Virus record (IMG/VR): IMGVR_UViG_3300008113_000177
Span: 1 to 56,192 of that record
From: a virus
Direction: 5' to 3' (one strand)
Length of the DNA: 56,192 bases
Positions 4,575 to 53,181 of this stretch are shown here, in pieces (position 1 is the stretch's first letter; each line of letters opens with the position of its first letter). A program made the translations under genes and the position numbers. The notes below the pieces were generated by a model. That model worked only from the letters and a program-made list of their open reading frames with translations, searched no databases and was not told the origin of the DNA.

Positions 4575-4783
4575 ACTGGTTCTTCTACTACAATCCAGTC
4601 ATCAGCAAAGAAACAATCTTGTGGAAGAGTAAGGGACTCCATCATAGTCTCTGCTTCTGGTGTCTTCATAACAAAGCAGTTGAAGCCTTCTGACCACCTA
4701 AGTAGCAGTTGGTCACTACCCCAGTGAACACGACTTACGACCTTGCCATACACAATATCTTTATGGATTTCCCCAAATGTCAT
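4568..4783 (-). CDS. Tad2-like (DUF2829) protein, putative anti-Thoeris factor
   Basis: The 71-residue protein starts MTFGEIHKDIVYGKVVSRVHW and ends with FADDWIVVEEP. This follows the DUF2829 layout: an MxFGEA-like start with a GK-V-R-W segment, a central FVMKT strand, and a D-x-x-A-x-DW close. Tad2, the studied member, binds and sequesters the cyclic ADP-ribose signal that activates Thoeris immunity. Whether this copy binds a signal is inference. It sits three bases after DUF5872 and overlaps the methyltransferase, so all three are probably one transcript of counter-defence genes. A second DUF2829-like protein is at 43506. Confidence 0.75.
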   Translation of the reverse strand: MTFGEIHKDIVYGKVVSRVHWGSDQLLLRWSEGFNCFVMKTPEAETMMESLTLPQDCFFADDWIVVEEPVW

Positions 4784-4786
4784 ATG

Positions 4787-5173
4787 TCAACGAAACTTAG
4801 CAACTTTCTTGGCAATGGACTTAGGTTGTGCAACAAACTGCTTGCCAGTTTTGTTGCCCTCTGCCTTGGCTTTATTGGTTGCTGCCTTTTCACCAGGGCT
4901 AAGTGTTGACCAAGCTTTGTCTGGTAGATACCGCTTCTTACCCTCTGAAGGTGTGCTATCACTAGTGCGCCACTTCTGGTCTGTCCACTTTGCTAGACTG
5001 TTATCAGCCTTCTTTGGACCTTCGTAACCACCACCTGAAGCCTTGTATTTCTGTACTGCCAGCTGCGCTTTACGGGCTGACCATTCACCTGAATCACCAC
5101 CCTTAGATGATGACTTTACGTCACTTACTACCTTACTCCAAAGTGTCGGGTTAGTCTTTTTAGCGGTACTCAT
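4787..5173 (-). CDS. DUF5872-like basic protein (128 aa)
   Basis: The sequence shows the hallmarks of a short lysine-rich family found in phages and large DNA viruses: NPTLWSKV near residue 8, SARKAQLAVQKYK near 32-44, SLAKWTDQKW near 59-68, then KRYLP and LSPGEKAATNKAK. It is strongly basic and soluble. No biochemical function is known to me for the family; nucleic-acid binding is suggested only by charge. The start is leaderless, six bases after TAAAAT. It is the promoter-proximal gene of the operon with the Tad2-like and methyltransferase genes. Confidence 0.75.
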   Translation of the reverse strand: MSTAKKTNPTLWSKVVSDVKSSSKGGDSGEWSARKAQLAVQKYKASGGGYEGPKKADNSLAKWTDQKWRTSDSTPSEGKKRYLPDKAWSTLSPGEKAATNKAKAEGNKTGKQFVAQPKSIAKKVAKFR

Positions 5174-5179
5174 ATAGCG

Positions 5180-5185
5180 ATTTTA
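5180..5185 (-). promoter_or_regulatory. -10 box TAAAAT of the DUF5872 operon, leaderless
   Basis: Leftward TAAAAT is followed by exactly six bases (CGCTAT) and the ATG at 5173. No ribosome-binding site lies between or close upstream. Confidence 0.55.
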
Positions 5186-5251
5186 TCCTGTTATTTTGCC
5201 AATATTTAGGTGTTTACGCACGTGCGAAATATAGTAAATCCCGACAGTTGT

Positions 5252-5369
5252 GGGGGAAAGTATTTTTAGGGGTATTGGAAAGAATCTTTCCTTCCCCGGT
5301 TATTGAGGGGGAAAGAATTTAGTACCCCTATTAACAAGAGAGATTAATATACATATTACATATGTATAT
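5252..5369. other. Candidate replication origin: iteron block plus AT-rich palindrome
   Basis: GGGGGAAAGTATTTT starts at 5252 and a related GGGGGAAAGAATTT at 5307, followed by AGTACCCC. The same elements occur inside the initiator gene near 47050-47137 on the other strand. Next to the block, ATATACATA at 5347-5355 and TATGTATAT at 5361-5369 form a perfect hairpin in an AT-only-like stretch that could melt easily. Iterons beside an AT-rich element are the usual make-up of an initiator-dependent origin. A regulatory role instead is possible. Confidence 0.55.
5278..5290. promoter_or_regulatory. Palindrome GAAAGA-A-TCTTTC, candidate operator
   Basis: A perfect 6+1+6 palindrome differing only at the centre base from the one at 2209-2221. 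It lies within the origin-like block, between divergent leaderless genes. Confidence 0.45.
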
Positions 5370-5396
5370 ATATTAATACGCGCGTAGAGCTTATGT

Positions 5397-5402
5397 TATG
5401 AT
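5397..5402 (+). promoter_or_regulatory. -10 box TATGAT of the HNH gene, leaderless
   Basis: TATGAT is followed by six bases (TTGGCT) and the ATG at 5409, with no ribosome-binding site. Confidence 0.55.
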
Positions 5403-5408
5403 TTGGCT

Positions 5409-5666
5409 ATGCCATACGTAAACAAAGAGAGACCCTACAAAAAAGAATACGCACAGCAAGTCGCTAGAGGTGAACACCCTACCCGTATGGAACGCCAGAA
5501 GGCTCGTAGAGCTATGGACGCTAACGGGGTAGACCGTAAGGGTAAAGACATCGACCACAAGAAACCTCTTTCAAAGGGTGGTACTAATGCACCTTCCAAC
5601 CTACGGTTGGTGAAACCTGCGACCAATCGCAGTTTCAAAAGAAACCCTGATAGAAGCGTCAAGTAA
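5409..5666 (+). CDS. HNH endonuclease (85 aa)
   Basis: The core DIDHKKPLSKGGTNAPSNL near residues 47-65 contains the HNH metal-binding histidines and asparagine, with a final TNRS. The upstream part is basic and helical (ERQKARRAMDANGV). Such small proteins nick or cut DNA; phage versions may be homing nucleases or assist the terminase. This one is far from terL. The ATG at 5409 is chosen over a TTG two codons earlier because the -10 box ends six bases before it. It is probably a single-gene transcript. Confidence 0.88.
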   Translation: MPYVNKERPYKKEYAQQVARGEHPTRMERQKARRAMDANGVDRKGKDIDHKKPLSKGGTNAPSNLRLVKPATNRSFKRNPDRSVK

Positions 5667-5675
5667 GTATTGTGA

Positions 5676-5705
5676 TATACTGTCACTGATGACAGGTTCC
5701 TGTCA
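5676..5705 (+). promoter_or_regulatory. Extended -10 promoter with a start-site palindrome
   Basis: TGATATACT gives an extended -10 box (TATACT at 5676-5681) without a clear -35. Just downstream TGACAGG-TT-CCTGTCA at 5690-5705 is a perfect palindrome over the expected start of transcription. It could be a repressor site or a 5' hairpin. The ribosome-binding site AGAGGAG follows for the gene at 5719. Confidence 0.5.
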
Positions 5706-5718
5706 GAGGAGTACAGTG

Positions 5719-5994
5719 ATGAAAGTTATTTCCTTTTCAAGGGATTCGGATGCAGAGGTTGAAATCAACCCTAAGGTTCCTGGAACCTATGATGTCTCAA
5801 TCAAAACGGTAGATAGCACTGAGATGGTATCGGCTGTATCAGCTGGTGAAGCGTGGATGTATATCCGCAACTACGATGCAAAAGTTCCTATGAAGATTAT
5901 GCTTGACTTTGCTGAGTTGGCTATTCGCTCGATGCAAGTTACAAACCAACCGTACACAGTTGTTTTGAATCCAGAGGTTACAGATGCTGAATAG
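5719..5994 (+). CDS. Small acidic protein upstream of ssb, unknown (91 aa)
   Basis: The start is the ATG after AGAGGAGTACAGTG. The protein begins MKVISFSRDSDAEVEI, alternates short strands and one helix, and has no cysteine or membrane segment. It overlaps ssb by eleven bases and shares its promoter, so a role in DNA replication or recombination is possible by context only. The family is not recognised. Confidence 0.75.
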   Translation: MKVISFSRDSDAEVEINPKVPGTYDVSIKTVDSTEMVSAVSAGEAWMYIRNYDAKVPMKIMLDFAELAIRSMQVTNQPYTVVLNPEVTDAE

Positions 5995-6379
5995 AGTCGT
6001 TCTAATTGGTCGATTGGTTGCTGACCCTGAACACCGCATGACTCAGTCTGGTAAGGGTGTAGCAAACCTACGTGTAGCAGTAGACCGAAAAGGGCGGGAG
6101 AAGGAAACTGATTTCTTTGATGTTACCGCTTGGGGGCAGTCTGCTGATTTTGCTGCTACTTACCTTTCTAAGGGTAGACTTGTTGCTATTGAAGGGCGTC
6201 TACAAGTTCGCCAATATACTGATAAAGACAACACACAGCGTAAAGTATGGGAAGTTGTTTCTGATTCGATTCAGCCTTTGGATAGCGGAAAAACTAAAGC
6301 TGAGGGTGGACATCAACAGCCAGCAGCTCATTCGTCTTCAGCAGATTCAAATGAAGAAATCGAAGACCCATTCGCCTGA
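5984..6379 (+). CDS. ssb: Single-stranded DNA-binding protein
   Basis: The first hundred residues match the bacterial-type OB fold: MLNRVVLIGRLVADPE, then WGQSADFAATYLSKGRLVAIEGRL and ending near VVSDSI. A flexible Gly/Ser/His-rich linker leads to an acidic tail ending EIEDPFA. The usual partner-binding tip ends in PF; here an alanine follows. It binds ssDNA as a tetramer in this family and recruits replication partners. Translation is coupled to the preceding gene, and AGAGG precedes the ATG. The 3' end overlaps a convergent gene by 52 bases. Confidence 0.95.
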   Translation: MLNRVVLIGRLVADPEHRMTQSGKGVANLRVAVDRKGREKETDFFDVTAWGQSADFAATYLSKGRLVAIEGRLQVRQYTDKDNTQRKVWEVVSDSIQPLDSGKTKAEGGHQQPAAHSSSADSNEEIEDPFA

Positions 6380-33881: not shown

Positions 33882-36800
33882 ATGGCTGAAGACCAAAGGC
33901 AAAGATTCCGTCGGCTTGTACAGACTCTTGCTGACGATGACCGTACATTCTTAGACTCTAGCCTTCTTGGCACATACAAGAATAGTCTTTCACTAGGTCT
34001 TCAGAAGAATTGGCTATCTCAATCAGAGTACAACAATTATCTTGGTGTAGGTGACAAGCGTCTAAAGACTTTGCGTGGTGTCCAGTTGATGGATGCTCAA
34101 GGTAATAAACTTACCAAGTCTATAGATGTTCAAGTCCCTACACCTCAAGGGTTTACTACTCAGACTAAGACTACACCTATCACACCACTTGACCTACTAC
34201 GTCGCACTGGTGGGCAGATGGAAGGTGCTGATGTAGATGCGCCTAACTATACTGGCTTTACTCTTGAGTTAGGTGAACCTGCTCAGACGATGTATGACCA
34301 GCGGCAGAAGATGGGTGACATCGCTGCTAAGGGTAAAGCAGCAGCAACTAAACTTGAAAAGGAGAGAGGTCTTACGGCATTCGATAGACCTCAGACTGTA
34401 CCGGCTATGCTTGCTGGTATTCCTTTTGGTGTTCTATCTGGTGTATCTAAGGCAGTTGCCACACCTGTATTGTCTACTGCTGGACGTATTGCATCTGCGT
34501 TTAGCCCTGAGGCAGGTCGTTCTGTAGACCAATTTACTGCTGACACTCTGTATTCAAAGCCTGAACTTAGTCCATCAAATCCATTTCAGTATGGTGCTGA
34601 GTTATCAGAGATTGGTGGTGCTACGTTTACTGAAGGTGCATTACCTACTGTTGTTGGTGGTATTACGGGTACTGCTGCTGCAATTCCTGTTTCATTAGCT
34701 ACTACACCCATTGGAGGTGCTATTGCTGGTTTTGGTACAGGTCTTGCTGCATCCACTGCAACTCAACAGGCTCAGAACTTTCTTGGTGAGCTTGCGATGG
34801 GGTCTTCATATACTCCATCAACGACTGGCTTTGGGTTTGATATTCAGCGTAGCCCACTTAGTCAAGCTCGTGCTGAGTATATGCAAGAGGGTAGAGAACG
34901 CGCCCCTGAGTTAGCTTACGCTGGACAACTTGCTACTAACTTCTTAATGGCAAACCCATCACTCCCTACGGGCTTTGGTGGTGGATTAAAGTCAGGGCTT
35001 GCTGCAACTAAACTAGGTACTGCTGGTAGAGAAGCACTTGCAACAGCGGCTGTTCCTACTCAAGGGCTTGCTGGTAAGTTAGCGTCTACTCCATTCATGC
35101 AAGGTGCTAGGACTGCTGGTCAACAACTAGAACGTATTCCGGGTGTTGGTACTGCCGCTACGTTTGGTCGTGGTTTTGCTTCGTCTGTACCGGGACGTGA
35201 GTTCCTGAGTGATGTTGCCGAGCGTGGTGTAGAAGCCAGTTCCGACCTTGCAATGGCACTTCAAGAGAACAACCAAAAGCCTGAATCAGAGCGTGACCCA
35301 CTATGGATGATTCTAGGTAAGACCGCTCTTGGTGGATTGTTTGAAGGTAAAAGTAAAATTGGTTCATACCTGAATGCACCAGGGCAACGTGCTGGTATGG
35401 CTATTACTCGTGCGCTTGATAAGCGTTTCGATACGTACACCCCTGAAGCCTATCAACCTATTGTTGCTCCGTCACCGTTTGCTCGCACACCAAGTGCTGG
35501 TGTGACACCGGGTGTAACTCCAACACCTACTCCTTCTGCTGGTGGTATTAGTCCTACATTTGCTGAGGCACGTACTGCTACTGCTGCTCCAAGGAATCCA
35601 CTAGGTGAAAACGTAGTGCCTATTGGTGGTGGGCGTGTAGTCAATATCAACCCAGAGAATATGTCTGCGACCATTGGTAATGCACCTGTATTTGAATCAG
35701 ATAGGGCTGGTGCTGATAACCCTATGGTTGGTCAGAGCCTACTGAATGCTGTTAGTTCACTAGCCCCTAAGAAGGGATTCAGTATTGCAGGGACGTATGC
35801 CAAAGCTGCAAGTACGTTTGGTAAAGTCCAGACTCGTGGTGATGAGTCGCAAGCATTCCTTGGTCTTACGCATGACGGTCTTGCAACAGTTAAGACAACT
35901 GATAAGAAGACTGGTGAGTCACGACTTGACTTGGTCAGTACGGATATGTTGTTTGGTGAAAACCAGAAACTAGCGGCTGATGCATTCAGGGCTGGTGGTA
36001 TTACACCAAGTGATAAGACTGGTTACCAACTCAAGAACTACGAGTATGACCTTAGTAGGGCAGCTGATTACATTCCTTCAAAGGATGGTGATGGACCTTC
36101 TGATACTGACTTCAATCGTCGTATCGATGTAGTTGGCACACCTCTTTATGGGCGTGTAGTCAAGGCTATCGATAAGAACTATTCTGTTGTGCAGGTTCCA
36201 TCACCTGTTGGTGGCTTTGATATGTTAGTTGTCCCTAACGATACTGTTGAGGGACTATCACGAGATTCTGTCGCTACAAAGTTTGAGGGTGAAGTACTAG
36301 ATACATCCTCTATGAATGTTGACCCATCTCAGTTTAGGGTTGATAGAAGTAAGTATGACCCTATCTTCAAGTCATCTGATAGAGAGAGATTCACTGGGCA
36401 AGACCATCCAGTCCTTCTTACACCTGAACAAGTTGCAGATGCTAAGACACGCAAAGATAACCTGAATGGTTATCGTAATAAGATGCGTTCTGAGGGTGTT
36501 CCTGGAGGTACAGCGCAGACTAGGTTGGCTGATGCGAGTAAGAACACACGCAAGGAATTTACTAAGTCATTCTCAAAGAGTGATACAGACTATGAAGTAG
36601 GTTCTATTGTTGAGTACAGAACTCCTTCTGGTGAAGTTGATAATGGCGTTGTTGTAGGTAATACGCAGTTTGGTCCAACCGTTGTTAGTGTTAGTAATCC
36701 ATCGGCTCCTGCGTTTACAGTTCAGCAATCCGCTATCACACGTGCTTATGGTGGTGTAACGCAAAAGGCTACACCTGAGAAGGCACGTAGGACAAAACGT

Positions 36801-39800
36801 ACCGAGGCTCCACGCCCTGAGCCAACTGCCACAACTGCACCTACTGCTGAGGCTACACCTACGGAACCAGAGGTTACTCCAGAACCACGAGAACGCACTA
36901 CTACAAGGCGTACTAGGGCAACTGAGCCAACGGCTGAAGTAACGCCGTCAGAGGCTCCTGTAGAGGCTCCTGAGCTTACTCCTCGTCGTAGGACACGCCG
37001 TCGTGCAGCACCAGTAGTAAACCCTATTGCTGATGAGCCAGTAGGTGAAGCTCGTATGCGTGAGGCAGAAGCACGTGCTGCTGAAGTAGAGATTCCTGTT
37101 ACACGTCCTGAGCCTACTGTAGCCCCTGTTGAGCCGGTCGTAGTGCCTGAGCCTACACCATCTATTATCACTGAAGCGGAGTTGTTAGGTGAATCAGACA
37201 TTCTCCCTGCGGAAGAAGGTAGCGCACTTGACGTCACTATGCCGGGTGATGTTGAGATGCTTGACAACGATTCTCTTGTACGCATTACCGCATCTATTGA
37301 AGGGCTTGGAGACATTAATGATGTGTTCCGTAAGGCACGTAATGTCACCGAACTCAAAGACATTCTCAAGCAAGTAATCAAAGATGCTAACGTCAAGATG
37401 CCGGAATCAGAGGTTGATAAGTATGCAGACTCTGTATCAAAGTATTACGACGAGTGGATTCGTGCATTCGTAAACAGAGACCTGTTGATTGCACAACAGT
37501 ATGCACAAGGTGTACGAGCGTTCTCTTCTACAGTTACTAGTGGAAGCCTGACTAAGTATAGTATTGATGAAGTACCTATCCTCGATACTGACACTAAGCA
37601 AGCTGCAAAGCAGAAGCGTGTAAGGAATAGGATTGCTCGTCTTTACCAGAAGTTTGAGATTCCTCGTGTCACCAACATTATTACTATGTTGAATGAGGAA
37701 GCATCAAAGAAGTCTCTGGTACGTAACGCTGATGGTACGTATTCACGTGATGAGCGTGTCATGTACTTTGGTGATGCATTATCGACTGACCAAAAGCGTG
37801 ATGTTGTACGTAAGGTGCAGTCAAGACTTATCCGAGAACGATATCAGACGAACACTCCTGTATTCGCTGTACTCTCCAAAGCACCTAATATCTCAGCTGC
37901 ATTTGACGAAGTCTTTGTAGGTGAAGGTGCATACGTCAATATTCGTAACAAGAATAATGATGTCGGTCAGCAGGTGGTGTTCATCACTATGAACCAGGCT
38001 GACTCAAATACCATTATAGAAGAGTTGTCACACGCCATTCTTGAGAATATGCCTGTTGATATGGCACGTGAGGTGGCAACCAAGCTTGGTAAAACTTTAC
38101 GTGAGCCTACGACTACAAACCAAAGCCTAGCCTCATACGAAATGCAAGAGATGTTTGCAGCACGTATGAAGGCATCATTCCTAAATGGTGAGAATGCTTT
38201 CGTTCAAAAAGAAGGTAGTACTGAAGCCAAGGCTCGTATGACAGAACTTTGGGACAACCTCCGTACGTTTATGCGTTCTGCATATTCAGAGATGTCCTCG
38301 GCTGTTGTAACACCTCTTGAGAATGGTAAGTACGAAGCTCAGTGGTCTGTTCCATACGATTGGCGTCGTATCTCTTTGTGGGATAACGCACCTGTTATTG
38401 TGGATGTAGATGGTATGCCTGTACGTGGAAAGATTCTTTCTACTAAAAAGTATCCTTTTGGACCCTTGATGGTTTCAGAGCGTAACCTAGATAAGCCGAT
38501 TGTGGCTGTTGAGTTATACGCTGAAGATGGAACAGTAACCCAGACTGAAGTCACCCCACGAGATGTGATTGCCTTGTCTGATGATATTGGGTTCAGTCCA
38601 GAGTTTGGCAAGATGTTGCTGAACTTTGTGTCTGGTTCATCGGGTCCACGTGGTGTTCAAGTTATTGGTCTTGATAACCCTTATAACGCTGTTACAAAGG
38701 CTCTTGAAGATAACTCCTATACTGGTATGACCAAGCGTGTTGCATCATTCGCTGATACCACCTTGAAGGAATACTCAGTCAAGTCTGTAAGTAATAAGCC
38801 TGAAGATATTGAACGTGCTACAGGTATGCTCGAAGGCATCATTCCTAACAAGCTCTTGGCTATTGTCAATCAGGCTAACGAGTATGGGTTGCTATCTGAT
38901 GTCTCCACTAATAGTGATGATTCGCTGAGTTTACAAAACTGGCTGAACGTAATTGGTACAATGAAAGCGGGAGAAGGTAGAACTCGTGAATCATTCACAA
39001 AGCAAGGTAATCGCAAACTCACAGCAGAAAAGTGGATGCGAAGGTCACTACCAGAACTGCAAGCCAATATTGCGGACGCAACACCATTTGCAGCTGCGCT
39101 GGAGGCACAAAGCCGTAATCAACGGTCGGCTTACAACGATGACGCAGGTAACACCGGCGGTAATATCCTGTACTCCAGTCGTAAAACTCGTTTTGCAGAC
39201 AAAGCGGACAGAGCGTTAGCCAACGGTCAAAGTTCCACAATCAATCCTGATGCACGTACACCTGTAGACTTTGCTGAGTCTGCTACAAGAAGTGGTGTGC
39301 CACGTGAGTCTGTTACCCCTATTGTTCAACAGAGATTAGACTCTGATGTCTTACGTTCTGAACTAGGTAATAGCAACATCAAGTTGATGGAGATAAACGA
39401 CGTATTAGTCATCGATGGAACAGTCGGTATCAACGATGCTGGTATTGACACCATTGGTAAGGCTATTGACTTTGCTGTCCGTAACAACATCCAAGAAGCA
39501 TTACTTGTTACAAAGGCAAGCTCTGGTGAAGAGATAGGTTACAACGAGAAGCGTGGTTATTCGGTAGAGCCATCAGTCACCTTTGAGTTTGATGGTCCAG
39601 TGACAGACAACGTGTACGCTGCTATGAAGCGTATGTATCCATACCTACGTAAGAGTATTGATGGACAGTCTGTAACGCTACATAACGTAGAGCAGAGAGG
39701 TAAGACATATGAGGAATCCCTCAACAACTTTGAAAAAGCCGTCGGCAACATTACCAGCGAACTCTCTAAGAGACGCATTCCAGTTCAAGCTATCCAAGAT

Positions 39801-42431
39801 ACTGAAAGAGTCTGGCATTTCGGAAACGAAGCGGCGGAAGGCTATGCCATCCCCTTCTATGAAGCGAGAAATGTACTTCACCTCATCAAGCCGGAAATCT
39901 ATGAAGCCGGACATCAGTCTATTGCCGACCAAAGGCTAAAGGATGTCATAGAGTCTTCTCTATCAACGGTTGCTGGGCGTGAAATAAAACTACCCGGTGA
40001 CTGGACTTACGCTCAGGATAATCAAGAACGTCGATTGGGTATTGCAAGCAACTACGACAAGTTACCTGCTAACTCGTATGACACTAACCCTGAGACTAAG
40101 ATGGCGTATGACGCTTTGATGTCTGAGATTGATAGACAGTTTACTTACTTGAAGATGGAAGTAGGTGACGTCTCATCTGAAACACCTGCGACAACAAGAG
40201 TAAAACGTGTGGATGATACTAAGGGTCATCCTTTGATGGCTGATAGTAAGCAGGTTGATGTTGATGGTAAGCCTCTTCGCTATATAGATGTTTTGAATGC
40301 TATCCATTCAAACCTTATTGATGCAGTTGAGGTTTCAAGTGGTGGAGAGTATGCAGACTATGGTGCGTTTGCAGCACACTCCGCTATTACAAAGGACGTC
40401 AACGCTATTCGTGCGTTGTATACAGAAACCTTTGGTCGGTCTAACTACAAGTCACTTGGTGGTGTAGATGTACATAAGGCTGCACTAGCCCCTATTGAGG
40501 ATATCAAGACAGGTATCGTTGCACTCGATAAGCGTATAGATAAGAACTACGAGACAACCAAGTCACCTTACGGAGACTTGAAACCTAATCAAGTCAACAA
40601 CCCTATGGGACGTGTACAGTATGCAACTGGCAGGGGTACTCCTCTCTACAGCCTTCGCCCTATACGTGATGCTGATATCAAAGATGTTGATGACTCTGAT
40701 TTGCCAACACCAGAGAATCCAATAACCTTTGCTGATGAGGATGGTGTTGAGACTACCTTTACTGACCCAAATGAATACAGCACATTCATCAAGGTTGTGC
40801 AGAAGATTGATGAAAGCTGGTTGATGAAGGGTTTTGATGTAATCAACGCATTAGGTCGCTTCCCAATGGCTGGAGACTGGTCTGCACCGCTCATCCAGAA
40901 CTGGATGCTTGCTAACCCTATTGAGTCACCTGACTTGTTTTTCAAGTCGTTACTGCTTGGACCTAAGTCTCTTGCACCTAATTTAGGTATTGATAACGGC
41001 GTTGGAACTATCAACAAACAGATGTTCAAGGGTCGTGAGCAGGTCCATATTATGGGCAATCAGATTCGCGCAAACAAGTATTACGAACTAGCAAAGCAGA
41101 GTAGGCTTACTCTTGCTACATCACAATACGACAGAATCCTAGATGAACTAAGAGTCAAAAGGGAAGAGCAGTTGGCTGAACTTCGCAAGACAAATCCAGA
41201 TGCAACTCTTCCTGAGATTGACTTGATGGATGTCAACGAGTTGGATGTTGACCCAGATATCCAAGGTGTTCTTTCTGGTGAGCGATACGTACCACTCAAA
41301 GCATCATCTGAACGTGCTATGACGATGATGAAGGACTACGTGAAGTTCAATAAGTTTGCACAGACGATGGCTACATATGAAGAACTAGGCTACGACCCAT
41401 CATCTGCTGGGTTCAAAGAAGCAGCGGCTGATATGGCAGCTGTTTTGAACGTCATGAATGGTGACATCAAGTTTAGCGCACAAGATTACGACAAAGCTAT
41501 CGGTCGCATGATGCGTCGTATTATGTTCGCACCACGCTGGCTTGCAAGTCGTGTAATGGCTGACCCAATAGGACGATGGGCTTTAGGACAAACTGATGTC
41601 GGTAAGAAGTGGATGGAGTTGAATGGCATTCCATCAACACGTAGTCTGAATCCGTATGCATTCAGGGCTAACTGGAAGATGCTATTGAAGGCACGTGCAT
41701 TGTGGTATGCACTACTTGCATACTTTGGTTTGTATCGTCCATTCGACCAGTTCAAGGTAAAGACATCTGTTGCTGCTGCCGGTACAAAGATACAGGTTGG
41801 CAACTATGTATTCAAAGCTCCTGGTGGAATCATGATGTTCCTTGAGTTTGGTGATGCAGTCGCTAACGCTATGAAGATGTCCCCAAAGGATTCACCTAAA
41901 GAGGCACGTGAGAAGTTCACTAGTATGCTGAGTTCGTTTGTTGAGGGACGGTTAGTAAACGCTCCTGCTGTCAGCATGATGAAGGAGATGTTCACTGGGC
42001 GTGACTTTATGGGTAAGCCTGTAGGTTACGTAGATGAAGACCTCAAGACTTGGTATGACAACGTAACCAAACCTATGTTGAAAGAGGTTGGTATTGATGC
42101 CCCTGACATGAAGCTCAGTAAGTTGGTTACCAAGAACCTTATGTTCCTTTGGGTGCAGTCGTACCTTGAAACGTATAAGGCGGCTAATGATAGAGAAGAA
42201 GAAGACAAGAACTTTGAGGCAGCCTTCGTTGGTGCAGTCAACGCACTAGGTGGAAGGCTTAGGTATAACCCACCGGCTGGTAAGGGTGAATATGACTACG
42301 ACACATACGGCAATCCTCCAGGATGGCAGTATTACTTACTTGGTTCAGACAAAGAAGAGTGGTTGATGAATCCTGAGTCTGAGTTACGACCAGACCAGAT
42401 GGAGCAAGTTGAGGAGGAGGTTCTTGAATGA
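33882..42431 (+). CDS. Giant virion-associated protein, large polyvalent type (2849 aa)
   Basis: The protein spans about 15 percent of the window. In order: helical N-terminus; hydrophobic Gly/Ala segment near 252-300; a Pro/Thr/Glu/Arg linker near 967-1103; a zincin-like stretch TIIEELSHAIL near 1377-1387 where the first histidine of HExxH is isoleucine; a region near 2110-2180 with HPLMADSKQ and GEYADYGAFAAHS; and a C-terminal domain from about 2317 with RRIMFAPRWLASRV and a membrane-like ALWYALLAYFGLY near 2606. Such multi-domain proteins in phages are packed in the head and injected. No polymerase motif of the N4 vRNAP type was seen. It shares ATGA with the lysin gene. Confidence 0.75.
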   Translation: MAEDQRQRFRRLVQTLADDDRTFLDSSLLGTYKNSLSLGLQKNWLSQSEYNNYLGVGDKRLKTLRGVQLMDAQGNKLTKSIDVQVPTPQGFTTQTKTTPITPLDLLRRTGGQMEGADVDAPNYTGFTLELGEPAQTMYDQRQKMGDIAAKGKAAATKLEKERGLTAFDRPQTVPAMLAGIPFGVLSGVSKAVATPVLSTAGRIASAFSPEAGRSVDQFTADTLYSKPELSPSNPFQYGAELSEIGGATFTEGALPTVVGGITGTAAAIPVSLATTPIGGAIAGFGTGLAASTATQQAQNFLGELAMGSSYTPSTTGFGFDIQRSPLSQARAEYMQEGRERAPELAYAGQLATNFLMANPSLPTGFGGGLKSGLAATKLGTAGREALATAAVPTQGLAGKLASTPFMQGARTAGQQLERIPGVGTAATFGRGFASSVPGREFLSDVAERGVEASSDLAMALQENNQKPESERDPLWMILGKTALGGLFEGKSKIGSYLNAPGQRAGMAITRALDKRFDTYTPEAYQPIVAPSPFARTPSAGVTPGVTPTPTPSAGGISPTFAEARTATAAPRNPLGENVVPIGGGRVVNINPENMSATIGNAPVFESDRAGADNPMVGQSLLNAVSSLAPKKGFSIAGTYAKAASTFGKVQTRGDESQAFLGLTHDGLATVKTTDKKTGESRLDLVSTDMLFGENQKLAADAFRAGGITPSDKTGYQLKNYEYDLSRAADYIPSKDGDGPSDTDFNRRIDVVGTPLYGRVVKAIDKNYSVVQVPSPVGGFDMLVVPNDTVEGLSRDSVATKFEGEVLDTSSMNVDPSQFRVDRSKYDPIFKSSDRERFTGQDHPVLLTPEQVADAKTRKDNLNGYRNKMRSEGVPGGTAQTRLADASKNTRKEFTKSFSKSDTDYEVGSIVEYRTPSGEVDNGVVVGNTQFGPTVVSVSNPSAPAFTVQQSAITRAYGGVTQKATPEKARRTKRTEAPRPEPTATTAPTAEATPTEPEVTPEPRERTTTRRTRATEPTAEVTPSEAPVEAPELTPRRRTRRRAAPVVNPIADEPVGEARMREAEARAAEVEIPVTRPEPTVAPVEPVVVPEPTPSIITEAELLGESDILPAEEGSALDVTMPGDVEMLDNDSLVRITASIEGLGDINDVFRKARNVTELKDILKQVIKDANVKMPESEVDKYADSVSKYYDEWIRAFVNRDLLIAQQYAQGVRAFSSTVTSGSLTKYSIDEVPILDTDTKQAAKQKRVRNRIARLYQKFEIPRVTNIITMLNEEASKKSLVRNADGTYSRDERVMYFGDALSTDQKRDVVRKVQSRLIRERYQTNTPVFAVLSKAPNISAAFDEVFVGEGAYVNIRNKNNDVGQQVVFITMNQADSNTIIEELSHAILENMPVDMAREVATKLGKTLREPTTTNQSLASYEMQEMFAARMKASFLNGENAFVQKEGSTEAKARMTELWDNLRTFMRSAYSEMSSAVVTPLENGKYEAQWSVPYDWRRISLWDNAPVIVDVDGMPVRGKILSTKKYPFGPLMVSERNLDKPIVAVELYAEDGTVTQTEVTPRDVIALSDDIGFSPEFGKMLLNFVSGSSGPRGVQVIGLDNPYNAVTKALEDNSYTGMTKRVASFADTTLKEYSVKSVSNKPEDIERATGMLEGIIPNKLLAIVNQANEYGLLSDVSTNSDDSLSLQNWLNVIGTMKAGEGRTRESFTKQGNRKLTAEKWMRRSLPELQANIADATPFAAALEAQSRNQRSAYNDDAGNTGGNILYSSRKTRFADKADRALANGQSSTINPDARTPVDFAESATRSGVPRESVTPIVQQRLDSDVLRSELGNSNIKLMEINDVLVIDGTVGINDAGIDTIGKAIDFAVRNNIQEALLVTKASSGEEIGYNEKRGYSVEPSVTFEFDGPVTDNVYAAMKRMYPYLRKSIDGQSVTLHNVEQRGKTYEESLNNFEKAVGNITSELSKRRIPVQAIQDTERVWHFGNEAAEGYAIPFYEARNVLHLIKPEIYEAGHQSIADQRLKDVIESSLSTVAGREIKLPGDWTYAQDNQERRLGIASNYDKLPANSYDTNPETKMAYDALMSEIDRQFTYLKMEVGDVSSETPATTRVKRVDDTKGHPLMADSKQVDVDGKPLRYIDVLNAIHSNLIDAVEVSSGGEYADYGAFAAHSAITKDVNAIRALYTETFGRSNYKSLGGVDVHKAALAPIEDIKTGIVALDKRIDKNYETTKSPYGDLKPNQVNNPMGRVQYATGRGTPLYSLRPIRDADIKDVDDSDLPTPENPITFADEDGVETTFTDPNEYSTFIKVVQKIDESWLMKGFDVINALGRFPMAGDWSAPLIQNWMLANPIESPDLFFKSLLLGPKSLAPNLGIDNGVGTINKQMFKGREQVHIMGNQIRANKYYELAKQSRLTLATSQYDRILDELRVKREEQLAELRKTNPDATLPEIDLMDVNELDVDPDIQGVLSGERYVPLKASSERAMTMMKDYVKFNKFAQTMATYEELGYDPSSAGFKEAAADMAAVLNVMNGDIKFSAQDYDKAIGRMMRRIMFAPRWLASRVMADPIGRWALGQTDVGKKWMELNGIPSTRSLNPYAFRANWKMLLKARALWYALLAYFGLYRPFDQFKVKTSVAAAGTKIQVGNYVFKAPGGIMMFLEFGDAVANAMKMSPKDSPKEAREKFTSMLSSFVEGRLVNAPAVSMMKEMFTGRDFMGKPVGYVDEDLKTWYDNVTKPMLKEVGIDAPDMKLSKLVTKNLMFLWVQSYLETYKAANDREEEDKNFEAAFVGAVNALGGRLRYNPPAGKGEYDYDTYGNPPGWQYYLLGSDKEEWLMNPESELRPDQMEQVEEEVLE

Positions 42432-44061: not shown

Positions 44062-44291
44062 TAGTCGCTCCTATTTGCAAATCCCCTACTACCTAGAATA
44101 ACTTCTGCTTCCTTGATGTTGCGACAACCCATCGTCTTGTATGCACGATACAAAAGGTCATCAAGGGTTCGTATCTTCAACCCTAGTCTCTCAGCTGCTT
44201 CTGCCCTGGTCTTTGATTCTGCTACCGTCATAATCACGTGTCGTTGCCAGTTGGACACACGCTTGTATCCTGTTCGGATTGATACATCCAT
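44061..44291 (-). CDS. Small HTH protein of GerE-like type (76 aa)
   Basis: The segment TRAEAAERLGLKIRTLDDLLYRAYKTMG near residues 28-55 has the helix-turn-helix spacing of LuxR/GerE domains (A-x-x-L-x-x-x-x-x-T-L-D-x-x-L-Y-R-A). A start WQRHVIMTVAES gives a helix in front. It overlaps the dnaB stop (TAATG). It may autoregulate the replication operon. It is less canonical than the protein at 8227. Confidence 0.7.
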   Translation of the reverse strand: MDVSIRTGYKRVSNWQRHVIMTVAESKTRAEAAERLGLKIRTLDDLLYRAYKTMGCRNIKEAEVILGSRGFANRSD

Positions 44292-45667
44292 TAGAGACTT
44301 CCTTCTGGAATATCAGCGAAACGTGCCACACGTTTGTGGAACTCGATTCGTGATACTCCAATAGACCCATTGCGGTTTTTCGCTGTTATCACTTCTGTCT
44401 CGGAAGGCATATCTTCGTCCCAAGCATTCCTATCTTCAGCGTAATAGTCTGGTCTATACAGAAATTGTACCACGTCAGCATCTGACTCAATATCCCCGGA
44501 CTCTCGTAGGTCTGACATGATTGGTCGCTTGTCATTACGCTGTTCACTTGCACGTGAGAGTGACGATAGAGCTATGACCGGGATACTAAACTCTTTGGCT
44601 ATGGACTTCAACCCTCTGCTCAGTACGCCAATATCACGTGTCCTACCTTGCGTCTCCTTGCCTGTATCCAGCATCTGTAGATAGTCAACGACAAGCATAG
44701 AGAGTGTGCCTCTGCGCTGCATATCACGAGCCTTAGCCCTGATGCTCTGAATGGTCACAGGAGTCTCTGTTGAGAAGTAAAGGGGTAATGTGTCCACCTC
44801 ACGTTGTGTAGCCTCCATACGGTCACGCTCGCCCTTAGAGAAGTAGCTGTTGTGAAGTGCTTGACCGTCTACGTTTCCTATTATCTGTAAGAGCCTCTGA
44901 CTAATCATGTCCTGTGACATCTCTACGCTGATGAAGAGCGCACCTCCACCACCATCCGCCTTGCACTGCCTTGCTGCGTTGATTGCATACTGTAGCCCAA
45001 GGGATGACTTACCCATAGAAGGTCTGCCACCAAGGATGATTAGTTCACCTTCTTTGAATCCGTTGATTACCTTATCGATATCAGCAAAGCCTGTAGGTAT
45101 GCCCTTCTTGCGACCGTTGAGGATACCTAAGATGCTTTCACGTAGCACATCACCTGCGCTTGATACTACGTTGGTTGCATTCTTTATCTCAGTACCCTTA
45201 GCAAAGTCTAGGGTGATTACCTCAGGGTCAATCTCACCTTGCTGCGCCCTGAGCATAGCGTACTCAGAGTTGACTACAATATTCCTAAGCTCGTGGTATC
45301 TCTTGACCTTATTGGCATACGTTACAGCGGTTGATGTAGTGAACTCCATATCACCTAACTGCATCAGATATGCCAAGCCACCTATGAGGTCTATCTGGTT
45401 ATGGTTAGTTAGGTCATCATTGAGTAGGACGATGTCGCAACTACCTTGCGTCTGAGCAACCACTCGCTTCATAGATGAATAGACAGCTTGGTTACCAGGG
45501 CGATAGAACATCTGTTCGTTGACGATATGCTCTACATCATCAAGAACCTTCTTGCCCCCAAGAAGGATAGTCCCAAGAAGGGACATCTCCACCATAGGGT
45601 CGAACGGGTAATACCCATCCTTCTTGCGTGATGATAGTTCAGATACACGCTTCTCAACTTCTGTCAT
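44291..45667 (-). CDS. dnaB: Replicative DNA helicase DnaB
   Basis: The 458-residue protein unwinds DNA at the fork as a hexamer. Walker A is GGRPSMGKSS near 213-222, Walker B region is MLVVDYLQMLDTG near 323-335, then ALSSLSRASEQRNDKRP and DLRESGDIESDADVV, typical of RecA-type motif 3 and 4 in DnaB. The N-terminal domain (about 20-120) has the partner-binding helices. ATGA overlap with the gene upstream couples it to the putative loader. Confidence 0.96.
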   Translation of the reverse strand: MTEVEKRVSELSSRKKDGYYPFDPMVEMSLLGTILLGGKKVLDDVEHIVNEQMFYRPGNQAVYSSMKRVVAQTQGSCDIVLLNDDLTNHNQIDLIGGLAYLMQLGDMEFTTSTAVTYANKVKRYHELRNIVVNSEYAMLRAQQGEIDPEVITLDFAKGTEIKNATNVVSSAGDVLRESILGILNGRKKGIPTGFADIDKVINGFKEGELIILGGRPSMGKSSLGLQYAINAARQCKADGGGGALFISVEMSQDMISQRLLQIIGNVDGQALHNSYFSKGERDRMEATQREVDTLPLYFSTETPVTIQSIRAKARDMQRRGTLSMLVVDYLQMLDTGKETQGRTRDIGVLSRGLKSIAKEFSIPVIALSSLSRASEQRNDKRPIMSDLRESGDIESDADVVQFLYRPDYYAEDRNAWDEDMPSETEVITAKNRNGSIGVSRIEFHKRVARFADIPEGSL

Positions 45668-46161
45668 TCTGAGATTGCCTTCACTTCAGGCTTGACATCA
45701 ATCTGTACAAGGTTCTGAACCGTATCGTTTGCGTCCTTCGTCCAGTCACGTAGTGCTGAGGTAAGCTTATCTCTATCCATCTTCCCTGCGACTTGCCATC
45801 CACCGATGTACTTGACAGCAACGATATCAAAGGGATGCAGGTCACCATCTGTCAGCCACTCAACCTCACGCTCTGAACGCATCTTAGGATGGACATCTGA
45901 GAGGAACCGGCAGATGCGATTGAACATCTGAATGACGGATGTTTCACCACACCGGATGCCACGTACCCTTCGAAGGATTGCAGCTGGACTAGGACGGAAG
46001 TCCTCAGTCTTCAACATATCGATGACTACGTCAATAGCCGTCTTATCGTCTACATCTTTGAGGGAAAGAGCGTAGCCTACCGCAACGCCATCATCCCATC
46101 GCTGTTGTGCTGGCATAGCACTAAGGATGCCAGCAACTGTACCAAACGCCTTATCAGTCAT
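45664..46161 (-). CDS. Putative helicase loader (165 aa)
   Basis: The ATG at 46161 is chosen because GGGAGAACTACT precedes it, overlapping the end of the previous gene by eight bases. The sequence begins MTDKAFGTVAGILSAMPAQQRW and has SPAAILRRVRGIRCGE near 57-72, helical throughout. It lies directly before dnaB in an ATGA-coupled pair, as loader genes do in several phages (G39P-type proteins). No ATPase motif is present, so it would be a non-AAA loader or inhibitor. Function is inferred from context. Confidence 0.6.
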   Translation of the reverse strand: MTDKAFGTVAGILSAMPAQQRWDDGVAVGYALSLKDVDDKTAIDVVIDMLKTEDFRPSPAAILRRVRGIRCGETSVIQMFNRICRFLSDVHPKMRSEREVEWLTDGDLHPFDIVAVKYIGGWQVAGKMDRDKLTSALRDWTKDANDTVQNLVQIDVKPEVKAISE

Positions 46162-46555
46162 AGTAGTTCTCCCATTCCTCTCCACTTGCATACGACTCAA
46201 ACTTTGCTTCCACATAACGGTCAATCTCTGGTTGAATCTCTTCATTAATCCAGTGACTAATCATGTCAAGTACTTCCTCCTCATCCATTGGAGGCGCACC
46301 TGTTTGTTGCCATTCTTCATCTGTCACTTCGATAGCCCACTTGACTTTCTCAACCCACTCATCACCATCCTTCAATAACTCAGGGTCGATTGGCTCTTTG
46401 CGGAATATCTTCCTTGCTTGTTCCAAGACCTTATCAGTTATGATGCAGTGGTACGTGACAGTGAGATTGGACTCATCATCCTCTCTCTCACCCTCGCCAA
46501 GCAGTTGGTCTGGAAGTGTCCAGCCAACGTGTGTGTACATATCGATGTCTATCAT
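46154..46555 (-). CDS. Acidic early protein (133 aa), unknown
   Basis: It begins MIDIDMYTHVGWTLPDQLLGEGE and is very acidic, with WINEEIQPEIDRYVEAKFES in the C-terminal helical part. The leader reads AGGAGGTAGGT directly before ATG. It is the first gene of a transcript starting at a strong promoter at 46576-46603. Acidic composition could mimic DNA, but there is no other evidence. Family not recognised. Confidence 0.72.
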   Translation of the reverse strand: MIDIDMYTHVGWTLPDQLLGEGEREDDESNLTVTYHCIITDKVLEQARKIFRKEPIDPELLKDGDEWVEKVKWAIEVTDEEWQQTGAPPMDEEEVLDMISHWINEEIQPEIDRYVEAKFESYASGEEWENYYD

Positions 46556-46575: not shown

Positions 46576-46603
46576 ACTTTACCACAATACACCGTACTGT
46601 CAA
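46576..46603 (-). promoter_or_regulatory. Sigma70-type promoter of the dnaB operon
   Basis: Leftward TTGACA at 46598-46603 and TAAAGT at 46576-46581 with a 16-base spacer, just upstream of the AGGAGGTAGGT leader of the gene starting at 46555. The -35 sits in the last codons of the initiator gene. Confidence 0.65.
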
Positions 46604-47463
46604 GACATATTCCTAACGAACTTCATTACATCCTCAGCTGATGTTGCGTGGTCTCGTGTCGAAGCTTTCTTGAGAGGTGTTCCGATGGTCGTAGTAAGTT
46701 GCGTTGCAGTTGACCAGTGTTTCCATACAGAGTTGATTGTGACCATATCTGCGTTGCCCCACTTGTTGGTGAGGTTCTGGCAAGCATTCACCAGGGTCTC
46801 ACCACTAATACCTTTGTTGACCATCTGGTAGAGGATGAAGTAAACGGACTTCCATTCAGTGACGTTGAAGTCAGATGCCTGTAGTGATGGATACTTCCAT
46901 TCCCTGAATGCTACGTAAAGCTCACGTGCTGGGTCATCATCCTTTGGAAGGGATACCTTTGAGCGTTTCTTTGTTGGAGCCTTTGGCTCAACAGCCTCTG
47001 GTACAGAGGATATATAGTTAATTGATTCTTGTTCTAATTGTTTCTTGTTAATTGGGGTACTAATTTCTTTACCCTCCCCCCTATAAGATTCTTTACCCTC
47101 CCCCTCCAAAATACTTTCCCCCTGATAGCCGGGAAGGATGATGTATTCGTTACTTGTTTGACGTCCTTCTTGGAACCTCATGCGACGTGATACAACCTTA
47201 CATCCTTCAATCTCTTTTGTCTCTAGCCCTGCGATTGCTGCACGTATCGTAGGTGCTGATAAGCCTGTTGACTTCATTAGTCTAGGGATAGATGGGAAGC
47301 ACACACCTTCTTGGTCAGCGTGTAATGAGATAGCGCAGAACACCATCCATTCACTTGACGTGAACTTATTCATATGCTGGAGTATGCGGTGTTCAAGTTG
47401 CACAAAAGAACTATGTTCGGACGTACGTAAGCTACGTGTCCTACCGTTGAATATTGTAATCAT
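46600..47463 (-). CDS. Replication initiator with N-terminal HTH and internal iterons (287 aa)
   Basis: Residues about 35-82 form a winged-helix/HTH of the replication-initiator type: TSSEWMVFCAISLHADQEG, then PSIPRLMKSTGLSAPTIRAAIAGL. A low-complexity linker (about 112-140, GEGKES and RGEGKEI) follows, and the C-terminal domain (175-287) is helical with AFREWKY and VWKHWSTA. The linker DNA carries iteron-like repeats, the layout of lambda O. It would bind them and recruit the DnaB/loader pair encoded downstream. CTATAAAGGTAGG-like leader (TAGGTAGGCAAC) precedes the ATG. Confidence 0.78.
   Translation of the reverse strand: MITIFNGRTRSLRTSEHSSFVQLEHRILQHMNKFTSSEWMVFCAISLHADQEGVCFPSIPRLMKSTGLSAPTIRAAIAGLETKEIEGCKVVSRRMRFQEGRQTSNEYIILPGYQGESILEGEGKESYRGEGKEISTPINKKQLEQESINYISSVPEAVEPKAPTKKRSKVSLPKDDDPARELYVAFREWKYPSLQASDFNVTEWKSVYFILYQMVNKGISGETLVNACQNLTNKWGNADMVTINSVWKHWSTATQLTTTIGTPLKKASTRDHATSAEDVMKFVRNMS
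47050..47137. other. Iteron cluster inside the initiator gene, candidate origin
   Basis: Leftward strand: GGGAGGGTAAAGAA twice and GGGGGAAAGTATTTT once, followed by AGTACCCC, within codons of about 109-137. The neighbouring bases 47008-47062 are AT-rich. The same elements occur at 5252-5332. In lambdoid phages the origin lies within the initiator gene in this manner. Confidence 0.65.
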
Positions 47464-48805: not shown

Positions 48806-49382
48806 CTTTAGTCTCCATAAGCGTTTTGATGGTGATGCTTTCTCCACCTTCCACTACAGCAAACCCGAATGCTTCAGCACTTGATGGGTCACTCAACAAC
48901 TTAGCCTTCACTGAATCTGGAACCATAGATATAAGTACAGATTCCTGTACCTTGATAGCCTGTGGACATTCCAACTTTGCGAATGCTAGTGCAACATTAG
49001 ATGTCATTACCTTTATCGTTGGTGTTGTCGTACGTTGACCGATAGTCCCGAATGGGCATCGATACGTCTTGCTACGAAGGTTGCCTTCCTTATCTCTAGG
49101 GAGGAGTGTGTTTGCTACCTTTGCAGCTTGACCTTCATACATAGCCCTAAGGTAAGTGACCTTAGACTTATGACGCTTGACCATCTTATTGATGTTCTCT
49201 AAGACAGACTTGTACTTCATCTCTTCTGCTGCAGCACGTGTCTCAGCGTCAAGAAGGATTCTCATATACTTGAGAAGGTCTTCTTCACCTTCAAGGATTG
49301 AGGGGAGGTCTCTCCCCGTTGGTCCCGCATACTCGCCTGTCTCATCATCAAACAGGTCACCGTCAATCTCAATAATAGCCAT
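48792..49382 (-). CDS. Gp157-like protein (196 aa)
   Basis: The long helical segment AETRAAAEEMKYKSVLENINKMVKRH followed by YLRAMYEGQAAKVA, then a beta-rich domain with TYRCPFGTIGQRTTTP, is the plan of Siphovirus Gp157-like proteins. These occur near recombination genes and have been linked to resistance to phage infection in Streptococcus. Here it lies just downstream of the ERF gene. The TAGG leader GAAAGGTAGGTAGGTATG is complete. Confidence 0.8.
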   Translation of the reverse strand: MAIIEIDGDLFDDETGEYAGPTGRDLPSILEGEEDLLKYMRILLDAETRAAAEEMKYKSVLENINKMVKRHKSKVTYLRAMYEGQAAKVANTLLPRDKEGNLRSKTYRCPFGTIGQRTTTPTIKVMTSNVALAFAKLECPQAIKVQESVLISMVPDSVKAKLLSDPSSAEAFGFAVVEGGESITIKTLMETKDETK

Positions 49383-49396
49383 ACCTACCTACCTTT

Positions 49397-50137
49397 CTAT
49401 TCGTTCGCTTCCAAACATCCAGTGATGAATACATCTGCCTCTGCTTTGTCTTTGCATTCAGACAAACAATCTGCTACGTGTGATAGTGAATCCTTTGTGA
49501 TAGGAACCTCTGAACCGCCAGCTGCGACAGCGTTGTGGATTCCCTTACGGTCAGCCTTAGATGTCTCTTTACCCCAGAGCCTATCAATCTCTGCGTTGAA
49601 CCTATCCAATGGTGCAGGTACTGTTGGCGCAGGTGTCTTAGGTGCTTGCTTTTGTGGAGTCTGCGGCTGTCGCAAAGGTTGTTGTGGAGCCTGAGATTGA
49701 TTCTGGTATCCACTAGCATTGTTGCCGTCATCATCCGTATCTGATGCTTCACCGATAGCCAAGAGTGCAGACAAGCTATATCTGCGCCCATAAGTAATAG
49801 CAGAGCCTACTCGATGTGCATCTACTGGCTGTACCTTGCCATCCCTGTTAATGATAGGGTTGACTGGTACAGATACTTCATTAGCAATCCACTCACCACT
49901 AGCATGAATCAACGTGGAGCGAACAGTAATCTCGCTATCAGTATGGCTTTGCACTGACTGTGACAAGAAGATGTTGTACTGACTAAGTACTGGACGAACA
50001 GACAGTAGAATGCTATCAAGCGTGATGTATTTACTACGGAAAATAGGGTTGTTGCCATCCTTTGCAACACCATTAATGCCAGCCTGAACCTTCACAAGGT
50101 CAGGTGCAATACTAGACAACGAATCTGAATGAAACAT
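49397..50137 (-). CDS. erf: ERF-family single-strand annealing protein
   Basis: Residues about 10-140 contain the ERF pattern: LVKVQAGINGVAKDGNNPIF, then AHRVGSAITYGRRYSLSALLAIGEASDTDDDGN (in parts VGSAITYGRRY and SLSALL). ERF proteins form rings that anneal complementary strands in phage recombination. A Gln/Pro-rich linker (145-175) connects to a C-terminal helical domain. AAGGGAG precedes the ATG and a sigma70-type promoter lies 23-50 bases upstream. Confidence 0.9.
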   Translation of the reverse strand: MFHSDSLSSIAPDLVKVQAGINGVAKDGNNPIFRSKYITLDSILLSVRPVLSQYNIFLSQSVQSHTDSEITVRSTLIHASGEWIANEVSVPVNPIINRDGKVQPVDAHRVGSAITYGRRYSLSALLAIGEASDTDDDGNNASGYQNQSQAPQQPLRQPQTPQKQAPKTPAPTVPAPLDRFNAEIDRLWGKETSKADRKGIHNAVAAGGSEVPITKDSLSHVADCLSECKDKAEADVFITGCLEANE

Positions 50138-50159
50138 ATGTTTTCTCCCTTACGTAGAA

Positions 50160-50188
50160 AGTGTACTCCAAGAATACTGTATTGTCAA
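50160..50188 (-). promoter_or_regulatory. Sigma70-type promoter of the ERF operon
   Basis: Leftward TTGACA at 50183-50188 and TACACT at 50160-50165 with a 17-base spacer, followed by AAGGGAG and the ATG at 50137. The -35 overlaps the last codon of the upstream gene. Confidence 0.7.
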
Positions 50189-50835
50189 TAATCCATCTTA
50201 GACAAAAGAAGTTCTTCTTCATCATCATCTGGGTAGAGGTTTGAGATTTCCTCAAGGTTGAATGGTGATTCAGTATCCTGGAGTATGAGGAAGTCAGCTT
50301 GTGAATAAATCTTTGTGACTGGGATGTATTCAAGTATCATCGCTGGGTTGAGCATAGCCTCTTCAGGGTTATCGCTCGTATCCTTTATGACGCCTAATGC
50401 GTGTTCTATATCAGCTGATACTACTTGATGTGGCTTGCCGTTGATTAGTCTATGGACGCATCCAAGCTTGCCATCCTGTACCTTTGCCACCCGGTAAACA
50501 AACCCGCCAAAGTCTGGTGTAAGTCTGCCATCTGGTGCATCTGTAGGGCAGGTACATAGTGTTCCATTACATCCTAGTGCCTGTACCTTACGTCCGTTGT
50601 ATTCAAAGAAACGGTAACGATTCATCAAGGTACGAAGTTGTATTCTTGTGTTGTACTCGATGCCGTTCTGCGTTACTTCATCATCAAAGATAACTGCATA
50701 TCGCCATCCATCCTTCTCTGACTCTTGTATGAGATTGATACCCTCTATGGTCTCCATATTGACCCATACGTAGTCTCCACCTGTCTTCTGGAACACGTAG
50801 TCCCAACAATCAATACTTGGTTTCAAATAGCCCAT
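50185..50835 (-). CDS. Protein of unknown function (216 aa)
   Basis: ATG at 50835 follows GTGGAGGCAAACT and overlaps the nuclease gene upstream by 26 bases. It begins MGYLKPSIDCWDYVFQKTGG and has TLCTCPTDAPDG near 94-105, with three to four cysteines, and an acidic C-terminus rich in Asp and Glu (LYPDDDEEELL). The fold looks mixed alpha-beta. No family recognised. Position in the recombination operon suggests a DNA-related role at most. Confidence 0.65.
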   Translation of the reverse strand: MGYLKPSIDCWDYVFQKTGGDYVWVNMETIEGINLIQESEKDGWRYAVIFDDEVTQNGIEYNTRIQLRTLMNRYRFFEYNGRKVQALGCNGTLCTCPTDAPDGRLTPDFGGFVYRVAKVQDGKLGCVHRLINGKPHQVVSADIEHALGVIKDTSDNPEEAMLNPAMILEYIPVTKIYSQADFLILQDTESPFNLEEISNLYPDDDEEELLLSKMDY

Positions 50836-51232
50836 AGTTTGCCTCCACAAATCTTGTAATCTTATCTACGGTTGTCCAGTTGTTAAGTTCTGCCTCAACC
50901 CTTGATATAACCAATAGAACCTCTTCGGTAGAACGACAGATTGTCGTATACCCAGCATCTGCTATCTTTTGCTGTATCTCAGATGCCTTACCTTTCGCAG
51001 CCTTCAGTTCGATAGCTACTGCTTTGCTGCCCCATAGATGGTGTGACGAATGTATGTACAAGTCTGGTAGCCCTGGTGTGTTACCCTGATAGCCTGTCGC
51101 ATAACTGTACGCACCACATTTAGTGCATCTAACCTTAGTTCTAGTCTTCCCTGTTTCAAAGACTTTGTAACCTAGCACCATCAAAGTATCTATCACTTGT
51201 TTTTGTAGTGCTGCTTCAGGCTTAATCCTCAT
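50810..51232 (-). CDS. VRR-NUC nuclease (140 aa)
   Basis: The core reads NTPGLPDLYIHSSHHLWGSKAVAIELKAAKGKAS near residues 50-83: the aspartate of PD, then E-L-K, as in the PD-(D/E)XK superfamily VRR-NUC branch, with QQKIADAGYTTICRS after it. An insertion CTKCG near 36-40 adds a CxxC. Such small phage nucleases cut branched or single-ended DNA. It overlaps the gene upstream by eleven bases and is part of the recombination operon with ERF. Confidence 0.88.
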   Translation of the reverse strand: MRIKPEAALQKQVIDTLMVLGYKVFETGKTRTKVRCTKCGAYSYATGYQGNTPGLPDLYIHSSHHLWGSKAVAIELKAAKGKASEIQQKIADAGYTTICRSTEEVLLVISRVEAELNNWTTVDKITRFVEANYGLFETKY

Positions 51233-51782: not shown

Positions 51783-51833
51783 CTATCTATCTATCTATTC
51801 CTTTCGTGCGAACTGGTTTCAGAACTGGTTTCA
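51781..51833. repeat. Compound repeat: ATCT microsatellite and 12-base direct repeat
   Basis: Four units of ATCT at 51781-51797 overlap the start codon of the 186-aa gene. Then GAACTGGTTTCA occurs at 51810-51821 and 51822-51833. The same combination lies at 55906-55958. Confidence 0.7.
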
Positions 51834-51849
51834 AAAAGAGAAAACGGAC

Positions 51850-51972
51850 TCACCGCTTGCCTGAAAAGACAAGGGTGAATCCGATTACTAGTAAACCAAT
51901 CGCTAAAGGTACATATCCCATAAACAGGGTAGACCATCCTAGGAAACAAACAAAGCTTCCAGTCTGCCTCAT
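51850..51972 (-). CDS. 40-aa membrane protein
   Basis: ATG at 51972 overlaps the upstream stop as ATGA; TGA ends at 51850. The sequence MRQTGSFVCFLGWSTLFMGY followed by VPLAIGLLVIGFTLVF is nearly all hydrophobic and would span the membrane once or twice, ending SGKR. It lies before the compound repeat. Too short to assign. Similar tiny membrane proteins fill gaps at 828, 13623 and 43957. Confidence 0.62.
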   Translation of the reverse strand: MRQTGSFVCFLGWSTLFMGYVPLAIGLLVIGFTLVFSGKR

Positions 51973-52205: not shown

Positions 52206-52227
52206 ACCTACCTACCTTAGGGAATGA

Positions 52228-52255: not shown

Positions 52256-52266
52256 ATGTAAACGTA

Positions 52267-52827: not shown

Positions 52828-52837
52828 AGCTACCTAC

Positions 52838-53167: not shown

Positions 53168-53181
53168 ACCTACCTACCTTT

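Follow-up and report, generated by a model that had tools for sequence, protein, structure and literature searches.

A conserved intergenic iteron array that co-varies with the array inside the initiator gene points to a two-origin replication system in uncultivated tailed phages

Background

In phages lambda and SPP1 an O-type initiator binds iterons, an AT-rich stretch opens and a loader brings in the DnaB helicase. The lambda origin lies in gene O and combines iterons with an AT-rich stretch (PMC3349717), and SPP1 has one origin, oriL, inside gene 38 and another, oriR, about 12-13 kb away on the circle, both of which are bound by G38P (PMC6316719, PMC3485210). According to the published model for SPP1, replication initiates at oriL and forks stall at the oriR-bound G38P (PMC6316719, PMC3485210). 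SPP1 is the one phage we found with an origin in the initiator gene and a second one elsewhere that is bound by the same protein. Here we describe a comparable arrangement in the virus record IMGVR_UViG_3300008113_000177, a tailed phage with genes for a terminase, a portal and a major head protein, the whole 56,192-base stretch of which was analyzed and is referred to as the window. A first-pass annotation, made from its letters, had pointed to an origin-like block at 5252-5369 that resembled a block inside the initiator gene, and offered three readings: two origins, an origin and a handcuffing site, or a relic of gene transfer. We report that these blocks are two related, conserved and co-varying cis elements, and that both are probably replication origins.

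Findings

The elements on which the argument rests are the following:

5174-5408, no strand assigned: divergent intergenic region with the second iteron site, placed by open reading frames (ORFs), their families and the best match to the gene-internal block among genome windows
5240-5328, plus strand: intergenic iteron block, with CCCG at 5240 preceding unit 1 (5252-5268), followed by unit 2 (5277-5289) and unit 3 (5307-5328; GGGGGAAAGAATTTAGTACCCC)
5329-5378, no strand assigned: AT-rich stretch adjoining the intergenic iterons, the most AT-rich place of the genome in both 40- and 60-bp windows
5347-5369, no strand assigned: perfect palindrome ATATACATATTACATATGTATAT, with 10-bp arms and a 3-nt spacer
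47042-47135, minus strand: gene-internal iteron block in the initiator coding sequence (about residues 110-141), with three direct units 23-24 bp apart and synonymous constraint
47010-47049, no strand assigned: AT-rich flank of the gene-internal block, the second to third most AT-rich place in the genome

The iterons of both blocks follow an approximate consensus, GGGG(A/T)AAAGnnTTTnTA, with two to three direct copies per array at distances of 22-33 bp. For the comparison the intergenic block was taken together with its AT-rich stretch (5240-5378) and the gene block as 47042-47135 on the minus strand. Three words have exactly two occurrences in the window, one in each block: GGGGGAAAGTATTTT (5252, plus; 47108-47122, minus), TTAGTACCCC (5319, plus; 47054, minus) and ATTAACAAGA (5330, plus; 47043, minus). 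The CCCCCT-(N)-CCGGG-AAGG element that the first-pass annotation had seen in both blocks is indeed in both, but its place in the order of elements differs: read as CCTTCCC(C)GG...AGGGGG, it precedes unit 1 in the gene-internal block, whereas in the intergenic one it separates unit 2 from unit 3.

Local alignment of the two blocks gives a score of 42 as against a mean of 12.9 in dinucleotide shuffles, none of 2000 of which reaches 42; the proposed relationship of the blocks thus holds, with a similarity far beyond chance. With the intergenic region set by gene position only, the score is 43.5 and the best of 461 other genome windows attains 17, and a genome search using the window's region alone recovers the gene copy with an e-value of 3.7e-8. 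In a scan of all 120-bp tiles the block pair is among the strongest repeats inside the window, and the few stronger ones differ in location and character: those at 9.9-10.2 and 22.4-25 kb fall within ORFs, and that at 54-56 kb is noncoding. The AT-rich flanks lie on the same side of the iterons at both sites, namely the CCCC...ATTAACAAG side, and that of the intergenic block is likely to be an unwinding element. The AT-rich perfect palindrome noted beside the intergenic copy is real: it is one of only two perfect palindromes of such size in the window, is present only at the intergenic site and not at the gene-internal one, and may be an operator or part of the origin.

We then considered a core set of six genomes, comprising the window and five relatives (G001, G002, G007, G008 and G009) that have both genes and were read over their full length, and whose initiators are 46-86% identical to that of the window. 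A profile of the gene block found both sites in all six, the intergenic ones with e-values of 1.5e-9 to 1.1e-3, and its sole other match below an e-value of 10 was one stray at 6.7. Likewise, a profile of the intergenic block found the same pair of sites, with a few extra matches that overlap them. Each profile was built from blocks of the same six genomes, so what counts is that each also detects the kind of site from which it was not built. Several sequence changes are matched by lineage: CCCCTTTAACAAGAA is found at both sites of G007 and G008, CCCCTATTAACAAG at both sites in G001 and G002, and GGGTCAAGTTTTTTATA at both sites of G002. The palindrome is kept as ACATA(C/T)-N3-(G/A)TATGT beside the second site in 6/6 genomes. 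The intergenic block also stands upstream of the genes for a small HNH protein and a single-strand DNA binding protein (SSB) in many partial contigs. In G009 no HNH gene is present there, yet the block is retained ahead of the SSB gene; on this ground the idea that it is a scar of the HNH gene was rejected.

The gene-internal iterons encode a linker that is predicted to be disordered and to separate two predicted domains. The AlphaFold model of the initiator has a winged-helix N-terminal domain (approximately residues 20-110), a low-confidence linker (114-168) and a helical C-terminal domain (178-253). Because of this low-confidence stretch, the linker is likely to be tolerant as a protein, with the DNA being what is kept. 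A comparison of five divergent initiators at codons for the same amino acid revealed identical synonymous codons at 183 of 221 positions (83%) in residues 111-146 versus 577 of 1193 (48%) elsewhere. Hence, the gene-internal block is under a nucleotide-level constraint beyond that on the protein. The initiator itself contains the Pfam HTH_36 domain and matches PHROG families of replication initiation and O-like proteins; a search for relatives in PDB recovered none by sequence and, by fold, general winged-helix matches only (e-value > 0.001).

The explanation that we favor is that the two arrays are probably both origins of one initiator system of the lambda O or SPP1 G38P type, and of the options in the first-pass annotation two origins is the best supported, by analogy with SPP1. 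A single initiator would bind 1) the array inside its own linker-coding sequence and 2) the array that precedes the SSB operon in the divergent gap, at a distance of some 14.4 kb on the closed genome. The bound protein would melt the AT-rich stretch beside each array, and the DnaB helicase of the phage would be loaded via the protein encoded between the initiator and the helicase. Among the parts of this proposal, binding of the initiator to both arrays is very likely, firing of the gene-internal site is likely, and firing of the intergenic site is favored with less assurance; the latter might in addition be the switch or fork-barrier origin, a role put forward for oriR in SPP1.

More distant relatives extend this picture. 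Initiators were found in 15 of 16 further records, and the linker repeats of these distant relatives differ in sequence. G011 has its own type of iteron, TATCAAAAATGAGACCCC, in the initiator gene, and its divergent gap upstream of the SSB gene carries near-identical copies of it; in a test where the gap was defined by position it scores 30, whereas none of 500 shuffles exceeds 21 and no other window exceeds 19. In G016, G017 and G021 a self-search revealed that each also has its own iterons a second time, in short form, at 7-8.5 kb from the initiator.

Several observations weigh against the two-origin proposal. In G010 the match in the corresponding gap is weak: among 500 shuffles one scores as high, as do 9 of 1036 other windows. 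When own pairs were set against foreign ones by permutation the result was 5e-5, a value that is partly circular as the self-search sites are included in it; the position-defined test is cleaner. G012 and G014 have linker iterons, and a search for a second site found none in either. Five related initiators (G018, G019, G020, G022 and G023; L199-L203) are without the linker block, which the match skips, and in G022 and G023 an origin-like gap was searched for and none was found. The iteron pair is not universal among the relatives. AT-richness stands out less in G009, and in G007 and G008 the same is true of the gene flank. On the side of the proposal, the detrended GC skew reaches its minimum within 0.2 kb of the second site in the window (5142), G001 (53470) and G002 (8905), and within 0.4 kb of it in G007 and G008; in G009 the circular minimum is at 2442 and the second site at 2390. 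GC skew, one of the analyses proposed in the first-pass annotation, thus does place a minimum near the intergenic block, but it cannot separate an origin from transcription because skew follows gene orientation: that the orientation turns at the same point is only consistent with an origin and is no proof of one.

Alternative explanations

The alternative that survives best overlaps with the favored explanation, which permits it as a second role: the intergenic site might mainly be a fork barrier, where the bound initiator halts forks that started at the gene-internal origin and brings about the change from circles to concatemers, as in the SPP1 oriR proposal. The spacing is similar (about 13 kb in SPP1 and 14.4 kb here), and the phage encodes an Erf annealing protein and an SSB, proteins of the kind that the SPP1 model needs; yet no sequence feature separates a barrier from an origin, and as the main role we regard it as possible without favoring it. 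We are slightly more doubtful of a scheme in which bidirectional replication starts mainly from the noncoding site near the GC-skew minimum and the gene array is an older or alternative origin, with the arrays evolving along with initiator specificity and some relatives having lost the gene array.

A further possibility is that the gene-internal site is the sole origin and the intergenic one is bound by the same initiator for control, by titration or handcuffing or by switching of divergent promoters. The intergenic site does sit in a divergent promoter gap, with a promoter-like sequence at 5373-5402 after the palindrome; the confinement of the palindrome to this site would fit as well, and extra copies of ori have been discussed as traps for the O protein in lambda (PMC3349717). 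However, a mere binding site would not need the adjoining AT-rich stretch, which is the richest of the genome and occupies the same flank in both copies, and the four promoter-like matches in the region are close to the shuffle mean of 2.4. We consider this rather improbable; the origin-and-handcuffing option of the first-pass annotation is accordingly less supported than that of two origins, with a control role still compatible with the sequence.

It is highly unlikely that both blocks are bound by another factor, such as a host protein or a phage regulator, or that their G-rich runs act as a structure. G-rich direct repeats could form four-stranded structures, but the stem-loop fold of the gene block is no better than that of shuffles (z = 0.60), the linker of the initiator gene is the classical place of O-type iterons, and in G011 the two sites share a different repeat type. 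The origin of the intergenic block as a decayed fragment of the initiator gene left by gene transfer, to which the gene-like order of its elements might point, can be dismissed, since this noncoding block does not keep the frame, has its own number and spacing of units, is maintained at one location across many contigs of related phages and carries the lineage-matched changes, such as that of G007 and G008.

Gene neighborhoods and other elements

The genes around the two sites are:

4787-5173, minus strand: phrog_14910 gene, left neighbor of the divergent gap
from 5409 (ATG), plus strand: small HNH gene, right neighbor of the gap, followed by the SSB gene
5984-6379, plus strand: SSB, by family matches; the first replication gene recognized rightward of the second site
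44291-45667, minus strand: DnaB-like replicative helicase, by family matches
45664-46245, minus strand: 193-aa protein with no family assigned, an ORF between the initiator and helicase genes that, judged by its position only, may be a candidate helicase loader
46600-47463, minus strand: initiator, 287 aa, HTH_36 and O-like
49397-50137, minus strand: Erf-like single-strand annealing recombinase, by family matches; a candidate for concatemer formation

The initiator gene is thus followed by the 193-aa gene and then by the helicase gene. Genes run rightward from about 5.4 to 43.6 kb and mostly leftward in the remainder. A circular genome is likely because the contigs of the relatives have one gene map opened at differing points and G001 has a 25-bp identical end. 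The distances of 42 kb, or about 14 kb over the end, given in the first-pass annotation agree with the 41.8 kb measured directly and the 14.4 kb measured over the end, on a circularity inferred from synteny.

The second site was also considered as an RNA family or a terminator, and rejected as either: there was no Rfam match and no terminator-like match in 4700-6100. No tRNA was found in the window; in G007 and G008 the gap holds tRNA-like sequences, judged by eye, on the phrog_14910 side of the iteron block. A second conserved noncoding region, at 2000-2450, is G-rich (TAGGGGGAGGGGGGTAAGGCAAG...TAGGGGGGGACTCC...TTTCTCCCATCGTAGAAAC), is also found in G001, G002, G008 and G009, and has no match in Rfam; it might serve in packaging or control or specify a small RNA. 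Its G-rich part at 2000-2189 was rejected as a third iteron site, having no match to the iteron profiles though it is conserved. AGGTAGGTAGGT occurs at least seven times immediately ahead of start codons in the early region that runs leftward (49370-55475, minus strand), like stacked ribosome-binding sites. A 69-nt noncoding repeat with TAGTGTG-N-AATATCTCACA is present in three copies (54190-54258, 55460-55528 and 55808-55876), possibly as repeated promoters or operators. The ORF at 33882-42431 encodes 2849 aa and has a single marginal PHROG match, to a family of unknown function.

Relation to known systems

The lytic origin of P1, oriL, resembles the gene-internal site in its postulated location within the initiator gene repL and in the involvement of an AT-rich region (PMC9948254); this likeness is one of location and AT-richness as described. 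Lambda shares with the window the iterons within the initiator coding sequence, the AT-rich flank on one side and the DnaB helicase pathway. It differs in having a single site rather than two, the same self-search finding no second site when lambda is used as a negative control, and in using the host DnaB, whereas this phage has its own DnaB-like helicase.

The resemblance to SPP1 goes further. In both, one origin (putative here) lies inside the initiator gene and the second is intergenic, both sites combine direct repeats with an AT-rich region, the initiator gene is near that of a DnaB-type helicase, and an SSB and an annealing protein are present. In contrast, oriR of SPP1 interrupts late genes, whereas the second site here, with a palindrome beside it, occupies the divergent gap ahead of the SSB gene. 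The likeness is one of layout, taken from the published description. The lineage described here keeps this SPP1-like layout over deep divergence in uncultivated phages, with both sites changing together, and the purpose of a second origin (an early or late origin, a fork barrier or control) becomes approachable by comparing its members. The comparison of initiator linker DNA with the rest of its own genome also offers a simple computational route to the binding sites of initiators. A two-origin system of the SPP1 kind is already known, and what these phages contribute is unusually clear evidence of the co-evolution of its sites.
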